A stretch of 64,000 nt of DNA, taken from Leptotrichia sp. oral taxon 221 (GTDB taxonomy: Bacteria > Fusobacteriota > Fusobacteriia > Fusobacteriales > Leptotrichiaceae). Of this stretch, positions 28,899-44,192 are shown in pieces (the stretch's first letter is position 1; every line of letters starts with the position of its first letter). The stretch covers positions 496,001 to 560,000 of the forward strand of contig NZ_CP072378.1 of the NCBI RefSeq assembly GCF_018128245.1, in the 5' to 3' direction. Made by a program: the position numbers and the translations under genes. The notes below the pieces were generated by a model, which saw only the letters and a list, made by a program, of their open reading frames with translations, searched no databases and was not told the origin of the DNA.

Positions 28899-29089
28899 TG
28901 AGGTTTTATTTTATCAAAATTAGTGTAATAAAATTCTATAAAGGTTTATATTTTAATAAAATTTAGAAAAAATTTTATAGATAGAGATAGTTCTAGAAAT
29001 TTTTAAATAGAAAAAATAAATTAAATATATAATTAAATATATCTTTTTTATCATAAATAATAATTATATCTCCTATTAAAACCTTATAT

Positions 29090-29118
29090 TTTACAAATGT
29101 ATAAAAGTGAGGTATACT
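29090..29118 (+). promoter_or_regulatory. Promoter of the trp operon
   Basis: TTTACA at 29090-29095, a 17-nt spacer and TATACT at 29113-29118. The leader peptide starts 44 nt further on, and trpE about 365 nt on. Confidence 0.65.
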
Positions 29119-29161
29119 CTTTTTGTAAAGAAAAAGAAATTAAAAATGGAGAGTGATTATA

Positions 29162-29257
29162 ATGAAAAAAGCGACTTGGTTATGGTGGGAAGCATATAAA
29201 CAATTTAATATTTTTTTCACCAGCAATTTAGAATTTAGTTATAGTTATTCTATATAA
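29162..29257 (+). CDS. trpL: trp operon leader peptide
   Basis: A 31-codon frame, MKKATWLWWEAYKQFNIFFT..., preceded by GGAGAG. Three of the first nine codons are Trp, in a WLWW cluster, which is what attenuation by tryptophan starvation requires. It lies between the promoter and the terminator hairpin upstream of trpE. It is too short for routine gene calling. Confidence 0.85.
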   Translation: MKKATWLWWEAYKQFNIFFTSNLEFSYSYSI

Positions 29258-29288
29258 AATTAGATAAATAATAATTGATAGATTGTAT

Positions 29289-29363
29289 GAAGCATTGGTG
29301 AGTTATCAATGCTTTTCTCGATTAAATTCTCTGTTACTTGGCGAAAGTGATAGAGGATTTTTT
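29289..29363 (+). promoter_or_regulatory. trp attenuator: antiterminator-type and terminator hairpins
   Basis: Hairpin 1 pairs 29289-29297 with 29307-29315 (GAAGCATTG with CAATGCTTT). Hairpin 2 pairs 29329-29339 with 29345-29355 (11 bp, two G-T pairs) and is followed by GATTTTTT, a standard intrinsic terminator. The sequence GGGAAGCAT at 29187-29195, over the tandem Trp codons, could pair with ATGCTTTTC at 29309-29317 and compete with hairpin 1. Which pairing acts as antiterminator cannot be decided without folding. Confidence 0.75.
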
Positions 29364-29483
29364 GTTTTAAAAGAAAATAAAAAATTATGTTATAATATTT
29401 ATAAGTACAAATATAAATATAAAATTATAGAAACAGAATTAAATAGAAATAAAAAATTAGAAAGAAAATCAGGAGGAAATTAT

Positions 29484-30761
29484 ATGTTACTAAAAGACCC
29501 TATTTACTACTATTCTCGTATAAGAGAGCATTACAAAAATTCGTATTTGGCAGAAGATACTCTTCAAGTGATAATTGGAATTGATTGTGAGTATGTCGAT
29601 TCTTACGAACATAATTACAAATCTTTGGAGCAATTTTATAAATCGCAGAAGTCGATTGCACCATTTGCAGGGCTTTTTGGGACTTTTGCGTATGAAACGA
29701 TACATTATTTTGAGAAAATTGATGAGATTGAAAAATCACAATTTAAATTTCCTGCATTTTTATTTGCTAATGCGAAGGCTTACTTGCATTATTCCAAGAT
29801 TAGCAAGGAATATTCATTTTATGGGGATAAAGAAAAATATTATTCGATTTTGAAGGATGAAGTTGAGAAAATAGAAAAAAATGATAATAAAGATACTTAT
29901 TATACGATAAAAACAGATTTAGATAAGGAAAAAGAACATTTTTATAAAATTGTTGAGAAGGCGAAGGAGTATATAAAATCTGGGGATATATTTCAAGTTG
30001 TTTTGAGTGAGCAGTTGAAATTGGAAACTAATATGGATTCGTTGGAATTTTATAAATATTTGTCTGAAGCGAATCCATCGCCATATATGTTCCATTTTCC
30101 GACAAAATATGGAGATGTTGTAGGGTCTAGTCCTGAAATATTAGTTGATGTCTTTTCTGATACAATCTACATTGCACCAATTGCAGGAACACGACCCCGT
30201 GGGAAAGATGCAAATGAAGATGAATTTTTGGCAAACGATTTGTTGAATGATCCGAAAGAATGCTCTGAACACAGAATGTTAGTTGATTTAGCAAGAAATG
30301 ATGTTGGAAAATTTTCAGAAAAGGGTACAGTTATTGTGAAAAACTTGATGCACATTAAGCATTATCAACATGTTATGCACATTGTTTCTGAGGTTTTTGG
30401 GAAGAAACGTTCGGATGTAACGATTTTTGATATTTTATCATCAGCATTTCCTGCTGGGACTTTGAGTGGTTCGCCAAAAATTCGTGCGATGGAGATTATT
30501 GCAGAATTAGAAGAATTTAAGAGAAATGTTTATGGTGGCGGAATTGGATTTATTAGATTTAATGGAGATTTGCAAATAGCGATTGTTATTAGAACGGCAT
30601 TTTTTGAGGCAAAAGAAGATGGCTCTGACGCACAAAAGGTATTCATTCAATCAGGTGCTGGAATTGTTTACGATTCTGTGAAGGAGAGAGAGTATAATGA
30701 AATTTGTCATAAGAGAGCTTCTGTAGTGGGAGTTTTTGAGAGAAATGCTAAGAAATTGTAA
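29484..30761 (+). CDS. trpE: Anthranilate synthase component I
   Basis: Converts chorismate to anthranilate with ammonia from TrpG. 425 residues. Catalytic-region motifs are DIFQVVLSEQL, NPSPYMFHFP, GSSPEILV, APIAGTRPRGKDA, LVDLARNDVGK, SAFPAGTLSGSPKIRAME and the C-terminal QSGAGIVYDS. The usual N-terminal LLES feedback-site motif is not obvious; NSYLAED occupies that place. The ATG at 29484 has AGGAGG. An upstream in-frame start at 29283 would read through the terminator hairpin and is rejected. Confidence 0.95.
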   Translation: MLLKDPIYYYSRIREHYKNSYLAEDTLQVIIGIDCEYVDSYEHNYKSLEQFYKSQKSIAPFAGLFGTFAYETIHYFEKIDEIEKSQFKFPAFLFANAKAYLHYSKISKEYSFYGDKEKYYSILKDEVEKIEKNDNKDTYYTIKTDLDKEKEHFYKIVEKAKEYIKSGDIFQVVLSEQLKLETNMDSLEFYKYLSEANPSPYMFHFPTKYGDVVGSSPEILVDVFSDTIYIAPIAGTRPRGKDANEDEFLANDLLNDPKECSEHRMLVDLARNDVGKFSEKGTVIVKNLMHIKHYQHVMHIVSEVFGKKRSDVTIFDILSSAFPAGTLSGSPKIRAMEIIAELEEFKRNVYGGGIGFIRFNGDLQIAIVIRTAFFEAKEDGSDAQKVFIQSGAGIVYDSVKEREYNEICHKRASVVGVFERNAKKL

Positions 30762-30891: not shown

Positions 30892-32505
30892 ATGATTTTA
30901 TTGATAGATAATTATGATTCGTTTGTATTTAATGTGGAACAATATTTGAAGGAAATGACTGATGAGCAAGTGAAAACAGTTCGTAATGATAAAATTACTT
31001 TGGAAGAAATAAAAAAATTGAATCCGAGTAAAATTATTTTGTCACCAGGACCGAAACATCCAAAAGATAGCGGAATTTGTTTGGAGATATTGAAAAATAT
31101 TGATGATACGCCTATTTTGGGTATTTGTTTGGGACATCAGGCGATTGGATATGCGTTTGGTGGAGAGATAAAACAGTTGGAGGTTCCTTTACATGGGAAA
31201 ACTTCTGAAATTATTGTGAATAAGGAAGATTCATTGTTGTTTAAAGAATTGCCGAAAAAATTTAGTGTGATGCGTTATCATTCGCTTTATGTTAATGAGG
31301 ATAATTTACCAGAAGAATTAGAGGTTAGTGCAAAGTCAGATGATGGAATAATTATGGCTTTAGAACATAAAACAAAGGATATTTATGGAATTCAATTTCA
31401 TCCAGAGTCGTTTTTTACAGAATATGGTAAAAAAATAATTAAGAATTTTGTGGTATCGACTAATAAGAAAACGGTTGAAAATAAAGAGAAGGAGAAAAAC
31501 GAAAATTTGAAAAAATATTTAAAAAAATTGCAAGATAATATTGCGTTGACTGATGGTGATTTTAAGGAAATTTGTGCGATTATTGATAGTAAAAACTATA
31601 ATATTATTCAGCTCGGAGCGTTATTAGTTTTAATTTCAGAAAAAAGTCTTTATCCAGAGTCGCTTACGGCTTTTGTAAAAAATATTTTGGCTTATAGTAC
31701 GACGTTTGAGGATGAGTCGGATATGATAGATGTTTGTGGGACTGGTGGAGATGGATTTAAGACAATAAATATTTCTACGGCTGTTGCGTTTATTTTGGGA
31801 GCGATGGGAGTAACTGTTGCAAAACACGGAAATCGTGCGGTTTCAAGTAAGAGTGGAAGTAGTGATGTTTTAGATAAATTGGGAGTTCCTTTGGAAAAAT
31901 CATTGTTGGCTCAATTAGATAAACTTGAGAAAAAACATTTGGCATTTTTCCATGCACCGTTTTTTCATAAATTAGTTGGAGAAGTTAGAGAAGTTCGTCA
32001 GCAACTTGGAATAAGAACTGTTTTCAATGTTTTAGGACCTTTGTTACATCCTAATAAAAAATTAAAATATCAATTAGTTGGACTTTATCATGAACCTGTT
32101 CACAGATTGTATGCTGAAACATTGCAATTATTGGGAAGAGAGCATGCGTTGGTTGTGCGTGGAAATGATGGACTTGATGAAATTACAATTTGCGACGATA
32201 CAAAAATTATCGAAGTAAAAGGAGATCAAATTTTTGAATATACAATTTCTCCTGAGAGTTTCGGATTTAAAAGAGCTTTTCATTCTGAAATCGAAGGTGG
32301 AACGGCAGAAGAAAATGCTGAAATTTTAAAGAGAATATTAAAAGGTGAAGAAAAATCTGCAAAATTTGATATAGTTGTGTTAAATGCGATGTTTGGGCTT
32401 TATACTGCGAATGTAGTGGACCATCCTGCGAAGGCAAAGGAAATGATTTTGGAAGCGATTGAGAGTGGGAAAGTTTATGAATTTTATGAAAACTATGTGA
32501 AATAA
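30892..32505 (+). CDS. trpGD: Fused anthranilate synthase glutaminase and anthranilate phosphoribosyltransferase
   Basis: 537 residues joining two trp enzymes. The amidotransferase (about 1-190) has nucleophile C79 in ILGICLGHQAIGYAFGG and the His-Glu pair in FHPESFF. After a charged linker rich in Lys/Asn (about 192-210) the transferase domain starts, with DVCGTGGDGFKT, AKHGNRAVSSKSGS and DVLDKLG motifs. The same fusion occurs in E. coli (TrpD) and other groups. It sits 130 bp after trpE. Confidence 0.95.
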   Translation: MILLIDNYDSFVFNVEQYLKEMTDEQVKTVRNDKITLEEIKKLNPSKIILSPGPKHPKDSGICLEILKNIDDTPILGICLGHQAIGYAFGGEIKQLEVPLHGKTSEIIVNKEDSLLFKELPKKFSVMRYHSLYVNEDNLPEELEVSAKSDDGIIMALEHKTKDIYGIQFHPESFFTEYGKKIIKNFVVSTNKKTVENKEKEKNENLKKYLKKLQDNIALTDGDFKEICAIIDSKNYNIIQLGALLVLISEKSLYPESLTAFVKNILAYSTTFEDESDMIDVCGTGGDGFKTINISTAVAFILGAMGVTVAKHGNRAVSSKSGSSDVLDKLGVPLEKSLLAQLDKLEKKHLAFFHAPFFHKLVGEVREVRQQLGIRTVFNVLGPLLHPNKKLKYQLVGLYHEPVHRLYAETLQLLGREHALVVRGNDGLDEITICDDTKIIEVKGDQIFEYTISPESFGFKRAFHSEIEGGTAEENAEILKRILKGEEKSAKFDIVVLNAMFGLYTANVVDHPAKAKEMILEAIESGKVYEFYENYVK

Positions 32506-32526: not shown

Positions 32527-32862
32527 ATGATGTTAAAAACTTTGTATAAAGAAAAATGTTTGAGGTATTTTATAGCGCCTGACATAATATTACTTTTATT
32601 AGTTACAATTTTTTTCTACCCTATGTTAGAATTTTTATATTTTTTTGTTATTGGAAATATTCCTTTAATTTATATTTTGTTTAAAATAATAGTAATGTAT
32701 TTAAGTTCAAAAAAATTAAAAGAAATAAATAAAGTTGAAGATGAAGAAAAAAGAAAAAAATCTAAAAATAAATTAAAATTAGTAATTTTTTTAGTAAATT
32801 TAATAATGTTTAGTATGTATGTCAGTTTAGTAAAAAATGAAATTTTCATACCAAATATTTAA
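32527..32862 (+). CDS. Unknown small membrane protein in the trp operon
   Basis: 111 residues. Three hydrophobic segments (about 14-36, 38-58 and 83-102) with a basic, charged loop of KVEDEEKRKKSKNK between the last two. It begins 21 bp after trpGD and ends 16 bp before trpC, and codes on the same strand. It is not one of the known trp enzymes and I recognise no family. Codon use is like its neighbours. It could be a transporter accessory or an insertion that was kept. Confidence 0.6.
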   Translation: MMLKTLYKEKCLRYFIAPDIILLLLVTIFFYPMLEFLYFFVIGNIPLIYILFKIIVMYLSSKKLKEINKVEDEEKRKKSKNKLKLVIFLVNLIMFSMYVSLVKNEIFIPNI

Positions 32863-32878
32863 AAACAAAAGGAGAAAT

Positions 32879-33604
32879 ATGGATATTTTAGAAAAAATAA
32901 AAATAAAAAGAGATATACAGCTTAAAGAAGAATTAAAATCTTTTAAGCAGCCGTCGTTGAAAGAGGCATTGAAACAGGATGGAGTACGGATTATTGGAGA
33001 AATTAAAAGGGCTTCTCCATCGAAGGGAAAAATTGCGAAAGATGATTTTGATTTATTAAAACAGGCACAAAGTTATGTGGATAAAGGGGTTGCGGCTTTT
33101 TCGATATTGACAGAAAAGGAATATTTTAAAGGGGAGAATGATTTTATAAAAATTATAAGAGAGAAATTTCCAGAAATGCCGATTTTGAGGAAGGATTTTA
33201 TTTATATTCCGTTTCAGGTGGCTCATGCTAAGTTTTTGGGGGCTTCGGCGATACTTCTTATTGTGAGAATGTTGGATGACAAGACTTTGTGTGAGTTGCA
33301 TAAATTGGCACATGATTTGGAGCTTGATGTTTTGGTTGAGGTTCATGATGAGATTGAACTTGAGAGAGCGTTAAAAATACCTAATTTAGAAATTTTGGGA
33401 GTTAATAATAGAAATTTGAATACTTTTGAGGTAGATATTAAGACTACAAAGAAACTAATGGATAAAATTCCAGATGAAATGAAGGATAAACTCGTGCTTG
33501 TTGGCGAAAGTGGATTTCTTACGAAAGAGGATTTGGAGTATGCAAAAAGTATTGGGGTTGATGGTCTTTTGATTGGGGAAGCGCTTATGAGAGGTCTTCT
33601 TTAG
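32879..33604 (+). CDS. trpC: Indole-3-glycerol-phosphate synthase
   Basis: 241-residue TIM barrel. Catalytic stretches are GEIKRASPSKG, ILRKDFIYIPFQV, EVHDEIELERA, GVNNRNLNTFEVD and VGESGF. The ATG at 32879 follows AAGGAG; a start at 32837 would overlap the upstream gene. It is separate from trpF, unlike in E. coli. Confidence 0.96.
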   Translation: MDILEKIKIKRDIQLKEELKSFKQPSLKEALKQDGVRIIGEIKRASPSKGKIAKDDFDLLKQAQSYVDKGVAAFSILTEKEYFKGENDFIKIIREKFPEMPILRKDFIYIPFQVAHAKFLGASAILLIVRMLDDKTLCELHKLAHDLELDVLVEVHDEIELERALKIPNLEILGVNNRNLNTFEVDIKTTKKLMDKIPDEMKDKLVLVGESGFLTKEDLEYAKSIGVDGLLIGEALMRGLL

Positions 33605-33689
33605 GAAGTTATAATTTTGATAAAAAGTGGAAATTATTAAAAGTGAAAAATTGTATATTAATAAATTTAAATTTTTAGAGAGGAAAAAG

Positions 33690-34343
33690 TTGGAAGGAAA
33701 AGTTATTAAATTAAAGGTTTGTGGGATTCGTTCGATTGAGGAAATAGAAGAGTTGAAAAGTTTGGATATTGACTATTTTGGATGTATTTTTGCGAAAAGT
33801 CCGAGACAGGTAAGTGTGGAGTTGGCTAGGGAAATTACTGAGATTGCTCATAAGGCTGGGAAAAAAACAGTTGGAGTTTTTGTGAATGAGAGTGTTGAAA
33901 ATATTTTAGAAATTGTTGCGAAAACTGGTATTGATTGTGTTCAATTGCATGGGAGCGAAACGCCTGAATATTGTTTGGAATTATCTAAAAAATTTGATAA
34001 AATGAATAGTGATAGAAAAATTAACATTTGGAAAGTTTTTTTAGTGAATGATGAATTTCCAAATATTGAGGATTATTTAGGATATATTGAGTATCCGTTA
34101 TTCGATGCGAAAGGTGAAAATAGAGGTGGAAATGGAATTACATTTGATTGGAATATTTTGAAAGACTTGAAAGGTCAAAAATTTATTCTTGCTGGTGGAC
34201 TTTCTAAAGAGAATATTGCTAATGCATTGGAATATTCTCCGACAATTTTGGATGTGAATAGTAGAGTTGAGGTTGAAGATAGGAAGAATAAGGGGTTAGT
34301 AGAGGAAATTATAAATTTGATAGGTGGAGATATTTTTGAATAA
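33690..34343 (+). CDS. trpF: Phosphoribosylanthranilate isomerase
   Basis: TIM barrel of about 217 residues. KVCGIRSIEE holds the catalytic cysteine. FAKSPRQVS, VGVFVNE, VQLHGSE, the Asp-containing LFDAKGENRGGNG and LAGGLSKENI follow in order. The start is uncertain: TTG at 33690 has GAGAGG at the right distance. A GTG at 33627 gives a 21-residue N-terminal extension with a weaker site. Confidence 0.93.
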   Translation: MEGKVIKLKVCGIRSIEEIEELKSLDIDYFGCIFAKSPRQVSVELAREITEIAHKAGKKTVGVFVNESVENILEIVAKTGIDCVQLHGSETPEYCLELSKKFDKMNSDRKINIWKVFLVNDEFPNIEDYLGYIEYPLFDAKGENRGGNGITFDWNILKDLKGQKFILAGGLSKENIANALEYSPTILDVNSRVEVEDRKNKGLVEEIINLIGGDIFE

Positions 34344-34716
34344 AGAAGAGAAAAATTTGGTGGAAGAGGTTTTAATGTTATTTTCACGATATGAAAAGAG
34401 AGCATTGAGAGCGTTTTTTAGATCGGCTGAAAATGAGAAAATTGACGTTTCTGAAATTGATGAGAAATTTGAGAAAATAGCTGAGAAAAGTCGAAGAAAA
34501 AAAGGATTATTGAATGATATTAAAAATCTTTATGTAAAACAATTTAGATTTTTGAAGAAAATTTTAAAATTGGACGCTAAGGAAAAGGAAATTTATAGAA
34601 GAGAGAGATTAAGATTGATTTTAAAAATTGAGAATTTGAGAGGTTTGAGAAAGCTTGACGAAAATACAAGTGAAATTTTCAATATGTTGGAATTTTATTT
34701 GGAAATGGAAAATTAA
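34336..34716 (+). CDS. Unknown charged helical protein in the trp operon
   Basis: About 126 residues, rich in Lys, Glu and Arg, with predicted long helices and coiled-coil character (for example EIYRRERLRLILKIENLRG). The TTG start at 34336, with GGTGGAG before it, overlaps the end of trpF by 8 bp; GTG at 34324 is the alternative. It precedes trpB by 73 bp. No trp enzyme function or named family is recognised. It could bind RNA or another protein, but this is a guess. Confidence 0.6.
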   Translation: MNKEEKNLVEEVLMLFSRYEKRALRAFFRSAENEKIDVSEIDEKFEKIAEKSRRKKGLLNDIKNLYVKQFRFLKKILKLDAKEKEIYRRERLRLILKIENLRGLRKLDENTSEIFNMLEFYLEMEN

Positions 34717-34789: not shown

Positions 34790-35983
34790 ATGGAAAATAA
34801 AAAATCTTATTTCGGAGAATTTGGAGGGCAATATGTTCCCGAAACTGTGATGACTGCGTTATTTGAGTTGGAAAAGGCGTATGAAGAATTGGAAGATGAT
34901 AAGGAATTTCATGAGAATTTTGAGTACTTGTTGAAAAATTATGTTGGGAGAGAGACACCGCTTTATTATGCAAAAAATTTGAGCGATCATTATAATCAGG
35001 ATATTTACTTGAAAAGAGAGGATTTGAACCATACTGGAGCACATAAAATTAATAATGCGTTGGGACAAGTTTTACTTGCGAAAAAAATGGGGAAAAAGAA
35101 AGTTATCGCTGAAACTGGGGCTGGACAACATGGGGTTGCGACTGCTACAGCTGCGGCACTTCTTGGGCTTGAATGCGATGTTTATATGGGAGCAGTTGAC
35201 ATTGAAAGACAAAAATTGAATGTGTTTAGAATGGAGCTTTTGGGAGCGAAAGTTGTTTCGGTTGAAGATGGGCTTAAAACGTTGAAAGAGGCGACTACTG
35301 CGGCAATTCAGGCTTGGGTTGCAGAAATTGAAACTGTATTTTATGTGATTGGTTCTGTTGTTGGACCACATCCTTATCCTACGATTGTTAGGGATTTTCA
35401 GTCGATTATTGGAAAAGAGGCTAGACATCAAATTGAAGATTTAGGGAAACATGCTGATCATGTTATTGCTTGTGTTGGTGGTGGAAGTAATGCGATTGGG
35501 ATTTTTAGTGGATTTTTAGATGATGAAACTACGAAATTGTATGGTGTTGAAGCTGGAGGTCTTGGAATTGATACGGATATGCATGCGGCTACATTAACGC
35601 TTGGTAGTGAAGGTATTATTCATGGAATGAAAACTTATGTGTTGCAAAATAAATATGGACAAATTTTACCAGTTCACTCAATTTCGGCTGGACTTGATTA
35701 TCCAGGGATTGGGCCTGAACATTCATATTTGCATGATATAAATAGAGCGATTTATGCACCAATTACAGATGATGAGGCGATGCAAGCATTGATCCTTGTT
35801 ACGAGAAAAGAGGGAATCATTCCAGCTATTGAAAGTGCGCATGCTTTGGCGTATTTAGAAAAATTGTGTCCGACACTTTCAAAAGATAAGAGGGAAACAA
35901 TAATTGTAAATGTTTCTGGACGTGGAGACAAAGATATGCACACAGTATTTTCAGTATTGAAGGGAGAAAATGTTCATGAATAG
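34790..35983 (+). CDS. trpB: Tryptophan synthase beta chain
   Basis: 397 residues. PLP lysine in [14 protein letters not shown], the phosphate-binding loop [10 protein letters not shown], and the conserved [10 protein letters not shown] near the C-terminus. This is the common TrpB1 type, which works with TrpA. It has AAGGAG before the ATG. Confidence 0.97.
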
Positions 35984-36743
35984 TATAAAACGTGTATTTG
36001 AAAGAAAAAAGCAAAATAATGAGAAAACAAATATTGGGTATGTTGTTGCAGGGTATCCTAGTGTAGATTTTACGAAAAATTTTCTTTCTAATTTAGATAA
36101 AACAAATATTGATATTTTGGAAATTGGAATTCCGTATTCGGATCCATTAGCAGATGGAAAATTGATTTCAGAGGCTTCTTTTAAGGCATCTCAAGCTGGA
36201 GTTACGACAGATACAGTTTTTGAATTGTTGACAGAAGTGAAGGATAAAGTTTCAAAACCACTTGTATTTTTGGTTTATTATAATTTGATTTTTTCTTATG
36301 GAATTGATAATTTCTTGAAAAAATGTACAGAAAGCAATATTCAAGGATTGATTATTCCAGATTTGCCGTATGAGGAATCAAAAGATTTATATGAAAAGAC
36401 AAAAGAAAATAGTATAGATTTAATTCCATTGGTGAGCGTGACTTCTCAAAATAGAATTTCAAAAATTTCATCTCATGGAAGCGGATTTGTTTATGCGATT
36501 GGGTCACTTGGAGTTACAGGATCAAAACAAGTTGATTTGCCAAGACTTGAGAAATTTATTGAAAATATACGAACTCAAACAAATTTACCAGTATCATTAG
36601 GATTTGGAATAAAAAATAATAACGATGTAAAAAGAATGCGTCAATTTGCTGATGGTGTAATAATTGGGACAAGTATTGTGGATTTGACTACTTCGAATAA
36701 TTTGGAATATACGATTAGTGAAATTAATAAATTTTTTGAGTAA
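35976..36743 (+). CDS. trpA: Tryptophan synthase alpha chain
   Basis: 255 residues. Catalytic Glu in [14 protein letters not shown] and Asp in [10 protein letters not shown], and phosphate-binding [10 protein letters not shown]. The start at 35976 overlaps the trpB stop by 8 bp, which suggests coupled translation and balanced subunits; ATG 35970 is possible. It is the last gene of the operon and is followed by a bidirectional terminator. Confidence 0.96.
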
Positions 36744-38828: not shown

Positions 38829-40226
38829 TTAAAAAATAACATTAATAACTTGCTCTTCTATTTTTTTCTCTTTTCCAATTTTTTCAGGCTTATCCCGATT
38901 TTCCAAGTAAGTTTTAGCAACTTGTGGAAACATCGCATACATCAATACATCTTCATCTGACTTAGCCAAGTCCCCAATCTCTTGTTTAATTTTATCATAC
39001 TCATTTTCAATCAAGTCAGCTGGTCTTCCATTAAAAATCTCATCATCTCCAATAATTATTTTTTTCATCTCATCAGAAATTGGAACAGGCGATTTTCCAT
39101 AGAATCCTTTTACATAATCCTTAATTTCTTTAGGAATCATCTTGTAACGACTTCCTGTCAAAACATTGAACACAGATTGTGTCCCAACCATTTGGCTCAA
39201 TGGTGTTACTAATGGTGGATATCCCAAATCAGCCCTAACTTTCGGAATTTCCCTTAACACATCTTCATATTTATTCTCAGCTTTTTGTGCCTTCAATTGC
39301 GATAACATATTTGAAAGCATTCCACCTGGCAACTGATATTCCACAATATTAGGCTCTGTAAACAACGCTTGTGGATTTAAATCTCCACATTCCAAATGTT
39401 TTTTTCTAATAGGCTTAAAGTACTCAGCAATTTCCTTCAAAAGTTCTAAATCCAATCCAGTATCAAATTCTGTCCCTTGCAAAGTTCTTACCAATGATTC
39501 AGTCGCAGGTTGTGAAGTCCCGCTCGAAAATGGAGACATCGCAGTATCCACAATATCAACCCCAGCTTCAATCGCCTTAATACAAGTCATTTCCCCCAAT
39601 CCAGCAGTCGTATGCGTATGAATTTCAATCGGAACTTTTACAGTTTTTTTCAATTCTTTCACTAATTCATAAGCCCTATACGGCAACAAAATTCCCGACA
39701 TATCTTTAATCGCAATTGAATCAGCCCTCAATTCTTCCATTTCCTTCGCCAAATTTTTATAATATTCAATCGTATGAACTGGACTAATTGTATAACAAAT
39801 CGCCAATTGAGCATGAGCCCCATATTTTTTAGTACTTTCACAAGCCTGTCTAATATTTCTGACATCATTCAACGCGTCAAAAATTCTTATCACATCAATT
39901 CCGTTCTCTACTGATTTTTGCACAAATTTATCAACAATATCATCTGCATAATGACGATATCCCAATAAATTTTGTCCTCTTAAAAGCATTTGCAATTTCG
40001 TATTTTTTGCTCTCTTTTTAATTTCTCTCAATCTTTCCCAAGGATCTTCCTTCAAAAATCTAATTGATGCATCAAAAGTTGCCCCTCCCCACACTTCCAA
40101 TGCCTCAAATCCAACTTTATCCAATTTTTCAACAATCGGTAACATTTCCGCCGTCGACATCCTAGTAGCCATTAGAGATTGATGAGCATCTCTTAAAATC
40201 GTATCCGTTAATTTAACCTTTCCCAT
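38829..40226 (-). CDS. oadA: Oxaloacetate decarboxylase alpha subunit, carboxyltransferase
   Basis: 465 residues. A HMGL-like TIM barrel opens TDTILRDAHQSLMATRM with metal-ligand Asp. IEIHTHTTAGLGEM supplies the His-X-His metal pair, and KDMSGIL has the lysine that takes the carboxyl group. The conserved carboxylase domain follows from about residue 300. It lacks a fused biotin domain, which fits with the separate carrier gene downstream. AAGGAGG precedes the ATG and it is first in the operon. Confidence 0.94.
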   Translation of the reverse strand: MGKVKLTDTILRDAHQSLMATRMSTAEMLPIVEKLDKVGFEALEVWGGATFDASIRFLKEDPWERLREIKKRAKNTKLQMLLRGQNLLGYRHYADDIVDKFVQKSVENGIDVIRIFDALNDVRNIRQACESTKKYGAHAQLAICYTISPVHTIEYYKNLAKEMEELRADSIAIKDMSGILLPYRAYELVKELKKTVKVPIEIHTHTTAGLGEMTCIKAIEAGVDIVDTAMSPFSSGTSQPATESLVRTLQGTEFDTGLDLELLKEIAEYFKPIRKKHLECGDLNPQALFTEPNIVEYQLPGGMLSNMLSQLKAQKAENKYEDVLREIPKVRADLGYPPLVTPLSQMVGTQSVFNVLTGSRYKMIPKEIKDYVKGFYGKSPVPISDEMKKIIIGDDEIFNGRPADLIENEYDKIKQEIGDLAKSDEDVLMYAMFPQVAKTYLENRDKPEKIGKEKKIEEQVINVIF

Positions 40227-40345
40227 TTTTTTACCTCCTTATAACCTCAAGCCTCATAAACAGCCCCTTAATTCATATTACTTAACAATAATTTTATGCA
40301 CATATCAAACAATTATTTTTATTTTATAAAACTCCCTACAAAATA

Positions 40346-40373
40346 ATTATACCCCCTTTTTCTTTTAAGTAAA
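40346..40373 (-). promoter_or_regulatory. Promoter of the oad operon
   Basis: Minus-strand TTTACT (40368-40373), 16-nt spacer and TATAAT (40346-40351), about 120 nt upstream of oadA. Confidence 0.55.
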
Positions 40374-40722
40374 GTTATTTTAAAGAATAAAATTTTAGAG
40401 GGTATACAGGAGTAATATTTTTTAATGGAAAATTTTATGGAAATTTAGTGAAATTATGAGTAATGGTAGTTATTAAATGCAGATAAAATTATTTTTATTG
40501 GTATTCTAGTCTAATGTTCACTATTTTTATAACATTGTTAACATAACAAATATCGAATATACTTTATGATCATAAAAGTCCGCTCTTAAAAAGTCAGACA
40601 AGAGATTTTGAAATAAAAAACTAAAAGTACAAAAGAGCGTTTAAATAGCTTTATTTTAAATATCAAGTTGTGGTATAATTAATATATTGAAATTCAAAGA
40701 AAATAAAAGAGGGCATGATTTT
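40374..40722. other. Spacer between oad promoter and accessory patch
   Basis: No supported gene. A plus-strand extended -10, TGGTATAAT, with TATAAT at 40674-40679 lies 43 nt before the AAA-ATPase gene and probably drives it. CGCTCTT near 40574 and AAGAGCG near 40635 form a distant inverted repeat of doubtful meaning. The rest is A/T-rich with nothing recognisable. Confidence 0.4.
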
Positions 40723-42390
40723 ATGAGAACAAAAGCTGTTCCTGTGGGGATTGAAGATTTTGAAAGAATAATAAATGAAGATTATTATTATGTAGATAAA
40801 ACGATGTTAATAGAAGAATTATTGATAAACAGAGCTCCTGTGACACTTTTTACAAGACCTCGACGATTTGGAAAAACATTGAATATGTCAATGATTAGAT
40901 ACTTTTTTGATGTTAAAAATAAAAAGGAAAATAGAAAACTTTTTGAAAATTTGAAAATATATAATAGTGAATATATGAGTGAGCAAGGAAAATATCCTGT
41001 AATTTTCATTTCACTGAAGGATTTAAAGGGAGATACTTGGGAGAAATGTTTTGAAAATCTAAAAAAAACAATGTATAAAATTTTTAATAAATATGAATTT
41101 GTGAGAGAAAAATTAAATATTGTTGAAAAAAGACAATTTGATAAAATTTGGGAAATGAGAGATAGCAAACAAAGTTTTAAAACCTCACTCCTAGATTTGT
41201 CAAATTACTTAAATAAATATTATGGAGAAAAAGTCATAATTTTAATAGATGAATACGATGCTCCAATAATAAATGCTTTTGATAAAGGATATTACAATGA
41301 AGCAATGAACTTTTTTCAAATATTTTACAGTTCAGCATTAAAGACTAATAATTCTTTGAAATATGGTGTTTTAACAGGTATAACAAGGGTTATAAAAGAA
41401 GGAATGTTCTCTGGTTTAAATAATCTTTATGTAAATACAATTTTAAGTAAGGATTATTCAGAATATTTTGGATTTCTTGAAAGCGAAGTGATTGAAATGC
41501 TTGAGTATTTTGATATGAAGTATAAAATTGAAGAAGTTAGGGAATGGTATAATGGATATATCTTTGGAGAAAGTAAAGTATATAATCCCTGGTCCATTGT
41601 AAATTATGTAAGAAAAAAAGAAATTAAAGCATATTGGGCAAACGTTTCGGGAAATACATTTTTAGAAAATATGATTGATTATTCGGGAGAAAGTGTTTAT
41701 GAAGATTTAAAACGGTTTACTGATGGAGAAAGTATTGAAAAATATATTTCTGATGGAACAACAATAAAAAGTCTTTTAAGTAACGACGATGAGATATGGC
41801 AATTACTTTTATATAGTGGGTACTTAACAAAAGATGAAAAACAAAAAGAAATAGAAGTAACTTCAGAATATACAGATGTTTATAACTTGAGAATTCCAAA
41901 TAAGGAAATACGGAAATATTTTGGTAATATGTTTTTAAACAGATTTTTTGGAACAGAAGTAAAAACAAATATTTTGATAAAAGCGCTTGAAAATGGAGAT
42001 ATTAAAAAATTTGAAAAGACATTGGGAGAAATAATGATAAATATGTTGAGTCATTTTGACTTGGATAAGGAAATGGAAAAGATTTATCAAGTGTTTATGA
42101 TAGGGCTTGTAGGATTTTTGATGGGAAAATATGAAATTATTTCAAATGATGAAAGCGGATATGGAAGATATGACCTTGCAATGATTCCAATAAAAAGTAA
42201 CGAAAAAGCCTATCTTATGGAATTTAAAATATCGAAGACGAAAAAGGGAATGGAAGAGAAAGCACAGAAGGCGTTGAAACAGATTGATGAGAAGAAATAT
42301 GATACGAGATTGAAGGCAAGAGGGATAAGGAATATTTTGAAGATTGGGGTTGCGTTTTATGGGAAAGAAGTGAAGGTTGTTTTTAAATAG
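40723..42390 (+). CDS. AAA-ATPase-like protein with C-terminal PD-(D/E)XK nuclease-like domain (DUF1703 type)
   Basis: 555 residues. It begins with the family's VPVGIEDFERIINEDYYYVD. Walker A is RPRRFGKT at 45-52; Walker B is VIILIDEYDAP around 170. The C-terminal part has GYGRYDLAMIP and AYLMEFKISK, giving the D and E-x-K of a PD-(D/E)XK fold. These proteins are abundant in gut and oral anaerobes and often in several diverse copies. Their role is not established; defence or mobile-element control has been suggested. The ATG follows GAGGG. Confidence 0.85.
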   Translation: MRTKAVPVGIEDFERIINEDYYYVDKTMLIEELLINRAPVTLFTRPRRFGKTLNMSMIRYFFDVKNKKENRKLFENLKIYNSEYMSEQGKYPVIFISLKDLKGDTWEKCFENLKKTMYKIFNKYEFVREKLNIVEKRQFDKIWEMRDSKQSFKTSLLDLSNYLNKYYGEKVIILIDEYDAPIINAFDKGYYNEAMNFFQIFYSSALKTNNSLKYGVLTGITRVIKEGMFSGLNNLYVNTILSKDYSEYFGFLESEVIEMLEYFDMKYKIEEVREWYNGYIFGESKVYNPWSIVNYVRKKEIKAYWANVSGNTFLENMIDYSGESVYEDLKRFTDGESIEKYISDGTTIKSLLSNDDEIWQLLLYSGYLTKDEKQKEIEVTSEYTDVYNLRIPNKEIRKYFGNMFLNRFFGTEVKTNILIKALENGDIKKFEKTLGEIMINMLSHFDLDKEMEKIYQVFMIGLVGFLMGKYEIISNDESGYGRYDLAMIPIKSNEKAYLMEFKISKTKKGMEEKAQKALKQIDEKKYDTRLKARGIRNILKIGVAFYGKEVKVVFK

Positions 42391-42416
42391 AGGTTTAAGT
42401 AAAGGTGGGAAATAAA

Positions 42417-43400
42417 GTGAGTTTAAAAAAAATAAAAGAAAATTTTTTTGAAAATTTAAAAATGAATAAATTTGATTTATTAGTAACAGTAATTAATGAA
42501 ATAGGTAATTTTCCATATATAATGTCAGATATATATTTTAATAATGAAAAAGTAAGAAGTGGAGAATATCAAGGATTAGGTATAAATATCGGGTGGAATG
42601 ATGAAGATGAGACAGCATTGTATATTTTTGAATATGAAAATGAAATAGAAGATATAGAAAGGGTATATTATACTTATGAAGAGATGTTATGTTATCTTTT
42701 AATGTATCACTTGCAACATATGAATGAATATTCTGATATGATAGCTTTTGTAGAGCAGGAATTTTTAAATTATGTCAATCATATAGATGAATCAAAAAAA
42801 TATAAAATAAATATGGATTTAAATAGTATATTTGAAAGAGACAGATTAAGAAATTTTTTAATTAATTATGTCAAAAAAGAAAATCAATACAATATCGGAG
42901 CTATAAATTTTCATAAAAAAAAGATAGGATATTCAGATATAAATATACTAAAGAGATTTCTATCATATTTATTAGGGAAAGATGTATTAAAAGAGTTTTT
43001 ATCTAATCCACAAAAAAAATTTGGAATAAATCTAAAAAATTATTTTATTGATGATGGATATAATGAAATTTATAAGTTAACTATAGATAAATTGAGTATA
43101 AATATTGAATATTACTGTAGAGGTATGGGGTCTAATGGAAAATTGTTAGTTGGAGAACGTGGAATATTTTATGGAGATAGAAAAAGTTCTGATAAGTATA
43201 TCAGTGATTTTATAACAAAAAAAGAAGCAGAAATATTAATTTCAGAAAAATATAAAAATGAAAGAGAAAAGGAAAATGTAGAAATAATTTCTAAAAAAGA
43301 CTTTTTGAAAGAACTTGAAATTATTGTTAATGCTTATGAAGATATTTATAATGATAATGAAGTTCAGGAAATGTTTGAAAACTTTAAAGAAAATTTTTAG
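42417..43400 (+). CDS. Hypothetical protein, accessory patch
   Basis: About 327 residues, acidic and soluble, with no signal peptide or membrane span. Tyr-rich patches such as DIERVYYTYEEM and a C-terminal KKEAEILISEKYKNE are visible. I recognise no family. It starts at GTG 42417, with AGGTGGG upstream, 26 bp after the ATPase stop. An immunity protein or partner of the ATPase are both possible, neither supported. It ends directly at an insertion-sequence end relic. Confidence 0.6.
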   Translation: MSLKKIKENFFENLKMNKFDLLVTVINEIGNFPYIMSDIYFNNEKVRSGEYQGLGINIGWNDEDETALYIFEYENEIEDIERVYYTYEEMLCYLLMYHLQHMNEYSDMIAFVEQEFLNYVNHIDESKKYKINMDLNSIFERDRLRNFLINYVKKENQYNIGAINFHKKKIGYSDINILKRFLSYLLGKDVLKEFLSNPQKKFGINLKNYFIDDGYNEIYKLTIDKLSINIEYYCRGMGSNGKLLVGERGIFYGDRKSSDKYISDFITKKEAEILISEKYKNEREKENVEIISKKDFLKELEIIVNAYEDIYNDNEVQEMFENFKENF

Positions 43401-43402
43401 AA

Positions 43403-43437
43403 GAGAGAGTGTCCAGAATTTTGTGTAAATTCAAAAT
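43403..43437 (+). mobile_element. Insertion-sequence end relic, second copy
   Basis: Matches 16836-16872, sharing GTGTCCAGAATTTTGTGTAA and flanks, with a two-base difference in length near its left end. No transposase is nearby. It starts two bases after the preceding stop codon, so an element inserted or excised here. Confidence 0.55.
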
Positions 43438-43505
43438 CTAAAATATAAATTAAGATGGCACCCCATTATCTTGATTTTATAAATTCTACGAAAGGAAATA
43501 AAGAA

Positions 43506-44192
43506 ATGAAGGAAGTAGAAAGAACAATTCACTTATACAGAAAAGTAGACGTAAATGAATCAATGGAAGAAAGACATGAGAAAGTTATGGAAGGACTGTC
43601 AAAACTGGAAGCACCTTTAGGATTGAAAGATAGTGAAATTCCAGAAATACCTGACTTTGGGACAGAACTGGTATGTTTTTATGATGCTAAAAATATTAAA
43701 ACTAAAGGTGTTTCAATAGAAGGTGTATATAGGTGGAGAGGACTTAAATATGTAGTCTGGGATGAGTTACGTTATGAATTTAAGATAACATATAAGTTGA
43801 TAGACTATAAGAAAATAATATATGATGATCTTCCAAAAGTAATAAATATTTTTGATCCTTATATTGCTGATGTTTTTGTTTCCCCAAGTTATTCGATTGC
43901 TTATAAAGAAAGCTATAAATCAGAAATTTTAAAATTAGAGGAAAAAGGGTTAAAAGAACTTCAAGATGTATTATTTACACTATCTCCAGTGATGTACTTC
44001 AATGAAGAAAGTTATAATAAGCTGATAAAAGTACCAAAGGAAGAGCTTCTAGAAAGACTTAAGGGGAAAGCAAAGGTAGTGATGCTACTTGAAAAGGGTA
44101 TATACATTATCTTTAATGACAAGGCAGATATTACTTATGAAGAATTTGTGGAAATGAATAATATATTTAAGCCATTACTGGGATTAATTTAA
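43506..44192 (+). CDS. Hypothetical protein, accessory patch
   Basis: 228 residues from ATG 43506, chosen for its AAAGGAAA site. The ATG at 43455 adds 17 residues partly derived from the element's flank and is less likely. No transmembrane or signal segment. Motifs such as YRWRGLKYVVWDELRYEF suggest a beta-rich body. No known family is recognised. An immunity-like role is possible from context only. Confidence 0.55.
   Translation: MKEVERTIHLYRKVDVNESMEERHEKVMEGLSKLEAPLGLKDSEIPEIPDFGTELVCFYDAKNIKTKGVSIEGVYRWRGLKYVVWDELRYEFKITYKLIDYKKIIYDDLPKVINIFDPYIADVFVSPSYSIAYKESYKSEILKLEEKGLKELQDVLFTLSPVMYFNEESYNKLIKVPKEELLERLKGKAKVVMLLEKGIYIIFNDKADITYEEFVEMNNIFKPLLGLI

Follow-up and report, generated by a model that had tools for sequence, protein, structure and literature searches.

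In the trpL-type attenuator of Escherichia coli, a Shine–Dalgarno (SD) sequence and a short ORF with adjacent Trp codons are followed by the 1:2, 2:3, and 3:4 pairing logic and by a terminator before trpE, and the Trp codons themselves pair with segment 2. The trp leader of Leptotrichia sp. oral taxon 221, which lies within the 64,000-nucleotide stretch of DNA analyzed here (the window), shares the SD sequence, the adjacent Trp codons, the pairing logic, the pairing of the Trp codons with segment 2, and the terminator before trpE. However, it differs from the E. coli type in its tandem terminator-type hairpins, its AT-rich stems, a stop codon that lies beyond segment 2, and the absence of an Rfam hit within 28900–29600 at E values up to 10. 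Trp T-box leaders (RF00230) have the signal and the target gene in common with the window's leader, and one is seen before trpE in a relative (G035). Unlike the window's leader, they bind tRNA directly, and none was found at the window's trp operon.

According to the available text of one report, classical trp attenuators with double or triple UGG codons are known in Corynebacterium and Streptomyces (PMC1262725). These actinobacterial attenuators share with the window's leader the classical type, the adjacent UGG codons, and a place outside Proteobacteria, whereas the same text gives them GC-rich terminators, mentions no tandem pair, and concerns a different phylum (PMC1262725). In addition, a His leader peptide is described in bacilli in the excerpt available (PMC2965389). 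Because of these precedents, the earlier note on this DNA overstated the novelty when it held that a likely fusobacterium would show the mechanism outside Proteobacteria. The trpB motif SRC-39-1 of Firmicutes and Fusobacteria is a terminator-containing candidate element near Trp genes, for which its authors consider classical attenuation still possible; in the accessible part of the description, it sits before trpB or an amino-acid ABC transporter and no leader ORF is mentioned, which sets it apart from the window's element (PMC11109978). The same 2024 survey includes Leptotrichia buccalis, and the word trpE is absent from its main text (PMC11109978). In the available portions of other surveys, zero T-boxes are listed for two Fusobacteria/Thermotogae genomes (PMC2494555), Fusobacteria are among the phyla chosen in 2021 while peptide-type attenuators are described elsewhere (PMC8632094), and a main text mentions Fusobacteria once, as having too few genomes to judge (PMC4833913). 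Among the matches listed in the open-access literature, there was no report of a fusobacterial trp attenuator.

Leader region and trp operon of the window

The sequence and its comparison with relatives place a leader ORF with Trp codons, terminator-type hairpins, and conserved alternative pairings in front of a trp operon, all on the forward strand. A candidate sigma-70-type promoter, TTTACA-17-TATACT, with 10 of 12 consensus matches, lies at 29090–29118; the call is weak alone, with nine promoter-like sites around the leader and 5.8 in shuffles. By eye, relatives carry TATACT, TATATT, or TATAGT at a roughly equivalent position. The SD sequence GGAGAG (29148–29153), the GAG part of which is invariant in 15 aligned relatives, precedes a leader peptide ORF of 31 codons, MKKATWLWWEAYKQFNIFFTSNLEFSYSYSI (29162–29257), that contains Trp-Leu-Trp-Trp with the Trp codons at 29177–29179, 29183–29185, and 29186–29188. 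Complementarity also exists between the SD region (29145–29154) and the 5′ arm of terminator D, and the two are paired in several folds.

Segment 1 (29183–29192), made up of both adjacent Trp codons and 4 further nt, pairs in the minimum free energy (MFE) structure with segment 2 (TTTTTCACCA; 29213–29222), which, judged from folds and alignment, pairs with either segment 1 or segment 3. In the fold with a stalled ribosome, the 2:3 antiterminator encloses spacer hairpin B (29223–29286). The 3:4 pairing forms hairpin C (29289–29315), the first terminator-type hairpin (T1), which was assigned by folds and alignment and includes segment 3, TGGTGA (29296–29301); its U tract is a weak TTTTCTC in the window and better in most relatives. 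Terminator D (T2; 29324–29360), found by terminator scans, has a 16-bp stem and the tail TTTGTTTT, and the ATG of trpE lies 3′ of it at 29484, placing an intrinsic terminator between the leader ORF and the first gene. The leader fold of the window is more stable than 200 of 200 dinucleotide shuffles (z −5.4). Within 28900–29600, terminator D is the sole terminator-like site (shuffles: mean 0.0), and its 16 pairs make the longest stem among 12 such sites in 60 kb of the window, a scan that left out 40001–44000 and in which the overall site number was not above that of shuffles. The layout proposed in the earlier note, namely a promoter, an SD sequence, a 31-codon WLWW ORF, a hairpin, and a terminator before trpE, is indeed present at 29090–29483. 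Beyond that note, there are two terminator-type hairpins, and the Trp codons themselves constitute one arm of the first hairpin of the leader, helix 1:2.

The downstream genes, all on the forward strand, are trpE (29484–30761; PF00425, 5e-85), a trpG–trpD fusion of a GATase and an anthranilate phosphoribosyltransferase (30892–32505; PF00117, PF00591), trpC (32837–33604; PF00218), trpF (33627–34343; PF00697), trpB (34790–35983; PF00291), which adjoins trpA and is named from family and place, and trpA itself (35970–36743; PF00290). Two small genes inside the operon (32527–32862 and 34324–34716) had no Pfam match.

Leader peptides and other regulators across Fusobacteriota

A TrpE search over the phylum covered 98 genomes, 48 of which had any match. 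The TrpE set comprises the 36 genomes whose best match had E below 1e-73; the other 12, whose best matches were weaker (E 6e-62 to 1e-14), and second copies stand outside this classification, and 14 such places were viewed (L038–L051). In 32 of the 36 genomes, an SD-preceded leader ORF of 14–32 codons with adjacent Trp codons (WLWW, WIWW, WTWW, WSWW, WWW, or WW) lies upstream of trpE, so that the conservation of the leader peptide, on which the earlier note had staked its claim, is borne out. Such WW-type leaders occur in 19 of 19 cases within Leptotrichiaceae, the window's family, and in 13 of 17 outside it. Because the leader is conserved in relatives, its chance origin is very unlikely. Among the exceptions, the leader ORF is absent from L021; L033 has, by eye, a single-Trp ORF and then a terminator; L034 (G035) has a T-box before trpE (reverse strand, 663–392) with UGG at the specifier position as read from the alignment; and L035, which begins at a contig end, was entered as not judged. 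A Leptotrichiaceae metagenome-assembled genome (L052) encodes a TrpE 78% identical to that of the window, so that the earlier note was correct in taking the source for a fusobacterium.

With a loose Trp filter, the opposite strand of 30 upstream regions (L002–L031) yielded ORFs in L003 and L008 only, and in the later set also in L042. Additional forward-strand short ORFs from this filter (L003, L007, L010, L011, L014, and L031, and in the later set L034, L039, L044, and L050) were dismissed as unrelated, and a degenerate SD-ATG-TGGTGG pattern, which matched 98 of 98 genomes, was useless as a detector. A search with an RNA model of the leader for copies elsewhere than at trpE took in the window's genome and 12 sources; in the window's genome, it returned one strong copy, the trp leader, and a second match at E 0.04.

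Several loci depart from the common arrangement. In L016, from another genus, the leader is kept with changed segments (ACCCA:TGGGT, by eye). There (201–1440), the leader precedes what by eye is an ABC-transporter substrate-binding protein gene and then trpE, an order that suggests one attenuator for both trpE and an uptake gene. In L012 and L013, the distance from the leader to trpE exceeds that in relatives by about 850 nt, and no gene was assigned in the extra sequence between T2 and trpE. In G075, trpE is apparently split into two overlapping open frames (L018 and L046, the latter a piece of that gene).

The operon could instead be controlled by TRAP, TrpR, or a T-box, with the leader ORF incidental, and the UGG-specifier T-box before trpE in G035 gives this reading a foothold among the relatives. 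Against it, the TRAP gene (PF02081) was matched in 0 of 98 genomes with a positive Bacillus subtilis control, TrpR had no match in the window's genome, and Rfam 15 covariance models, that of the Trp_leader family included, gave no match in 28900–29600 at E up to 10. We therefore regard such control as extremely improbable. Across the 98 genomes, TrpR matches at E up to 0.001 were present in 34, of which eight were over the cut-off, and were clear in seven (E below 1e-22; g16 and g23). No T-box (RF00230) was found upstream of the window's trpE. The only T-box match in the window's genome (2.08 Mb in two contigs) is elsewhere, at L001 1501–1652; it is below the gathering score, and much of the model's 3′ part is missing from it. 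This match precedes, by eye, an asparagine-synthase-like gene, and its specifier position reads AAC (Asn) from the alignment. Comparing the leaders within one family, T-box and leader peptide appear to be two sensing systems that swap in front of trpE. In G035, a T-box precedes trpE, and a His leader peptide is found at the his genes.

His-run leader peptides, such as FHIHHHH, LHHHRH, and AHHHHHH, were also seen upstream of hisG in nine of 32 genomes viewed (37 have hisG). All nine loci (L085, L086, L087, L089, L090, L097, L120, L121, and L122) belong to family f2, probably Fusobacteriaceae, and terminator-like hairpins follow, by eye, in the five inspected. The His filter additionally picked up weak hits on the opposite strand (L091, L113, and L126), together with a chance-like one in L123. 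In seven Leptotrichiaceae genomes (L115–L119, L124, and L125), no His leader was found within up to 10 kb upstream of hisG (2.9 kb for one).

Alternative pairings and proposed ribosome stalling

The pairings were assessed in an alignment of 15 leaders (L002–L015 and L018; 14 distinct) that does not include L016 and three g9 leaders (L017, L019, and L020), g9 being perhaps Sebaldella, which is a guess. Applied to 11 leaders with no structure supplied, RNAalifold recovered 1:2 and hairpin C. In the 14 distinct sequences, helix 1:2 was 99.2% paired, and helix C was 100% paired with two-sided change in four of nine pairs. Taken jointly, 1:2 and 3:4 had 99.6% of cells paired and four pairs with two-sided change; 0 of 500 shuffles reached this pairing or these changes, slid versions were 42–71% paired, and the number of pair types was reached by 299 of 500 shuffles. 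Helix 2:3 was 96.9% paired, a count that is flattered because L016 and the g9 leaders are outside the alignment; one of 500 shuffles reached it, slid versions gave 29–55%, and its single pair with two-sided change was at a level reached by 95 of 500 shuffles. Segment 2 against the 5′ half of C beat mononucleotide shuffles in the window (p 0.02–0.03) and did not beat them in L003, L008, and the three g9 leaders. Thus, mutually exclusive antiterminator and terminator pairings are found across relatives, and the comparison lends good support to 1:2 and 3:4 and fair support to 2:3, which is the least well backed of these helices. Helix 1:2 has the adjacent Trp codons, TGGTGG, as its 5′ arm; segment 3 (TGGTGA) resembles these codons, and segments 1 and 3 would therefore compete for one CACCA.

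From this arrangement, we infer translation of the leader, ribosome stalling, an order of folding, Trp dependence, and the overcoming of terminator D. With abundant charged tRNA-Trp, the ribosome would pass the Trp codons, segment 2 would be covered or re-paired as 1:2, hairpins C and D would form, and RNA polymerase would terminate before trpE. As the stop codon of the window lies beyond segment 2, 1:2 would have to re-form behind the ribosome. When charged tRNA-Trp is short, the ribosome would stall at the WW codons and hide segment 1, and segment 2 would pair with segment 3 (TCACCA:TGGTGA) ahead of the synthesis of segment 4; hairpin C would then fail, and the operon would be transcribed.

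When the RNA was masked as far as the stalled ribosome and the transcript ended at segment 3, the window folded into 2:3 as its MFE structure (−19.4 kcal/mol). Once segment 4 was present, hairpin C was more stable (−24.8), which implies that the decision must be kinetic. In full-length folds, hairpins C and D both formed despite a stalled ribosome. Under the mask up to the ribosome and the end at segment 3, 2:3 was the MFE pairing in five of eight leaders (L002, L005, L007, L008, and L010), the window included; L003 blocked C via other pairs, and L017 and L019 were without 2:3. With only the footprint masked, the stalled window had 7.0 expected 2:3 pairs and zero 1:2 pairs, against 10.3 expected 1:2 pairs and 1.6 2:3 pairs with no ribosome. 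With the ribosome at the stop codon, the window gave a mixture (5.7 1:2 and 4.0 2:3 pairs) when the transcript ended at segment 3 and 1:2 alone when it reached D. The footprint mask also gave 2:3 at stall in L002, L003, L004, L007, and L018 and partly in L019 and L020. When the RNA behind the ribosome was free to pair, 2:3 at stall was weak or absent (≤1.4 pairs) in nine of 16 leaders, in which segment 2 was not free of other partners. The fold states therefore fit attenuation for the window and not for every relative.

Taken by itself, a short peptide containing Trp would be compatible with ribosome stalling by the sensing of free Trp, as in TnaC, rather than of uncharged tRNA-Trp. Sensing of tRNA instead fits Trp codons that lie side by side close to the start, mutually exclusive pairings, and intrinsic terminators ahead of biosynthetic genes, and on this comparison we consider a TnaC-like mode very improbable. 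The conserved ORF, the supported pairings, the right operon, and the lack in the window's genome of a TRAP or TrpR match and of a trp T-box make ribosome-mediated attenuation the best reading, and the window's element is very probably a ribosome-mediated transcription attenuator of the trp operon. This core of the earlier note's proposal for a fusobacterium stands.

Tandem terminators and the antiterminator strand

A strict automatic rule found both terminator-type hairpins in 15 of 18 Leptotrichiaceae leaders. The partner missed by this rule in L002, L003, and L008 is visible in folds, and both hairpins are present by eye in L016; tandem terminator-type hairpins are thus found in 19 of 19 leaders of the family by strict rule, fold, or eye. 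Outside Leptotrichiaceae, the strict rule returned a pair of sites for 12 of 13 leaders, and nine of these leaders were judged to have true tandem pairs. L022 and L025 were set aside with a weak first site at the ORF end, and L023 with a second site far downstream; L036 has one terminator only. A different and less elaborate scan, run over 60 kb of the window, found no two same-strand sites within 100 nt, a result that says little, as the scan also misses hairpin C and its sites are no more numerous than in shuffles. An open-access literature search on tandem terminators with attenuation found nothing. Given the tandem terminators, the element is a variant of the ribosome-mediated attenuator, whose testable features are found here.

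It is an evenly balanced possibility that just one of the two tandem terminators is regulated, the other serving as a pause hairpin or a constitutive partial terminator. Full-length folds contain D in all states tried, hairpin C of the window has its weak U tract, and four of 13 leaders outside the family (L022, L023, L025, and L036) have by judgement one clear terminator, all of which agrees with a single regulated site. The retention of both hairpins throughout the Leptotrichiaceae leaders argues the other way, and an unregulated strong D would be expected to hold the operon low.

We tentatively consider another arrangement, which we think somewhat less probable, in which one antiterminator strand serves both terminators in turn and one stalled ribosome opens two gates in series. 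In such a relay, segment 2 would pair with segment 3 and disarm T1; the T1 hairpin would then form too late to act, releasing segment 2; and the freed segment 2 would disarm T2 by pairing with its loop and 5′ arm. Complementarity between the 30-nt segment 2 and the 5′ portion of D (arm and loop) was compared with that of dinucleotide shuffles of segment 2. The p values were below 0.001 in L004, L007, and L018, 0.003 in L003, 0.007 in L016, and 0.016–0.046 in L005, L006, L009, L010, L011, and L015, and were not significant in the window (0.205), L008 (0.484), and L017, L019, and L020 (0.085–0.431). Fisher's combination over seven lineages, with hand-chosen representatives that include the best of the three g9 leaders, gave 3e-6, or 1e-5 with D shuffled instead; over six lineages with other representatives, it gave 2e-5 to 2e-4. 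From the leader ATG to C, no stretch more than 10 nt away outdid segment 2 as a partner of D in 13 of 16 leaders.

When the RNA was masked as far as the ribosome, the window was expected to form 13.8 2:D pairs with the ribosome stalled and 0.0 with it at the stop codon.

Several results speak against a shared strand. The window taken by itself is not significant, and in six of 16 leaders (L003, L004, L007, L008, L016, and L018), the 2:D pairs at stop were about or exactly as many as those at stall. In a cross-locus control, a leader's own D ranked first in only four of 11 leaders (L002, L003, L009, and L010), the relatives being partly near-identical. Equally good or better downstream stretches for segment 2 exist in 13 of 16 leaders, with 19 of 969 in the window and 716 of 972 in L020; L003, L004, and L007 have none. 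When the RNA behind the ribosome was free to pair, 2:D appeared only in L003, L004, L007, and L018, partly in L019 and L020, and in the window D preferred the leader SD region. Outside Leptotrichiaceae, two of 14 tests with mononucleotide shuffles (T1 in nine leaders, T2 in five) gave p ≤ 0.02 (L024 for T2 and L027 for T1). The complementarity of segment 2 to T2 in several lineages is suggestive only, and one strand may oppose both terminators.

Overall, the leaders place ribosome-mediated attenuation of trp, and from side observations that of his, widely within Fusobacteriota. The conserved double terminator raises the question of whether one antiterminator strand may open two terminators serially, with a tighter shut-off than a single attenuator would give.
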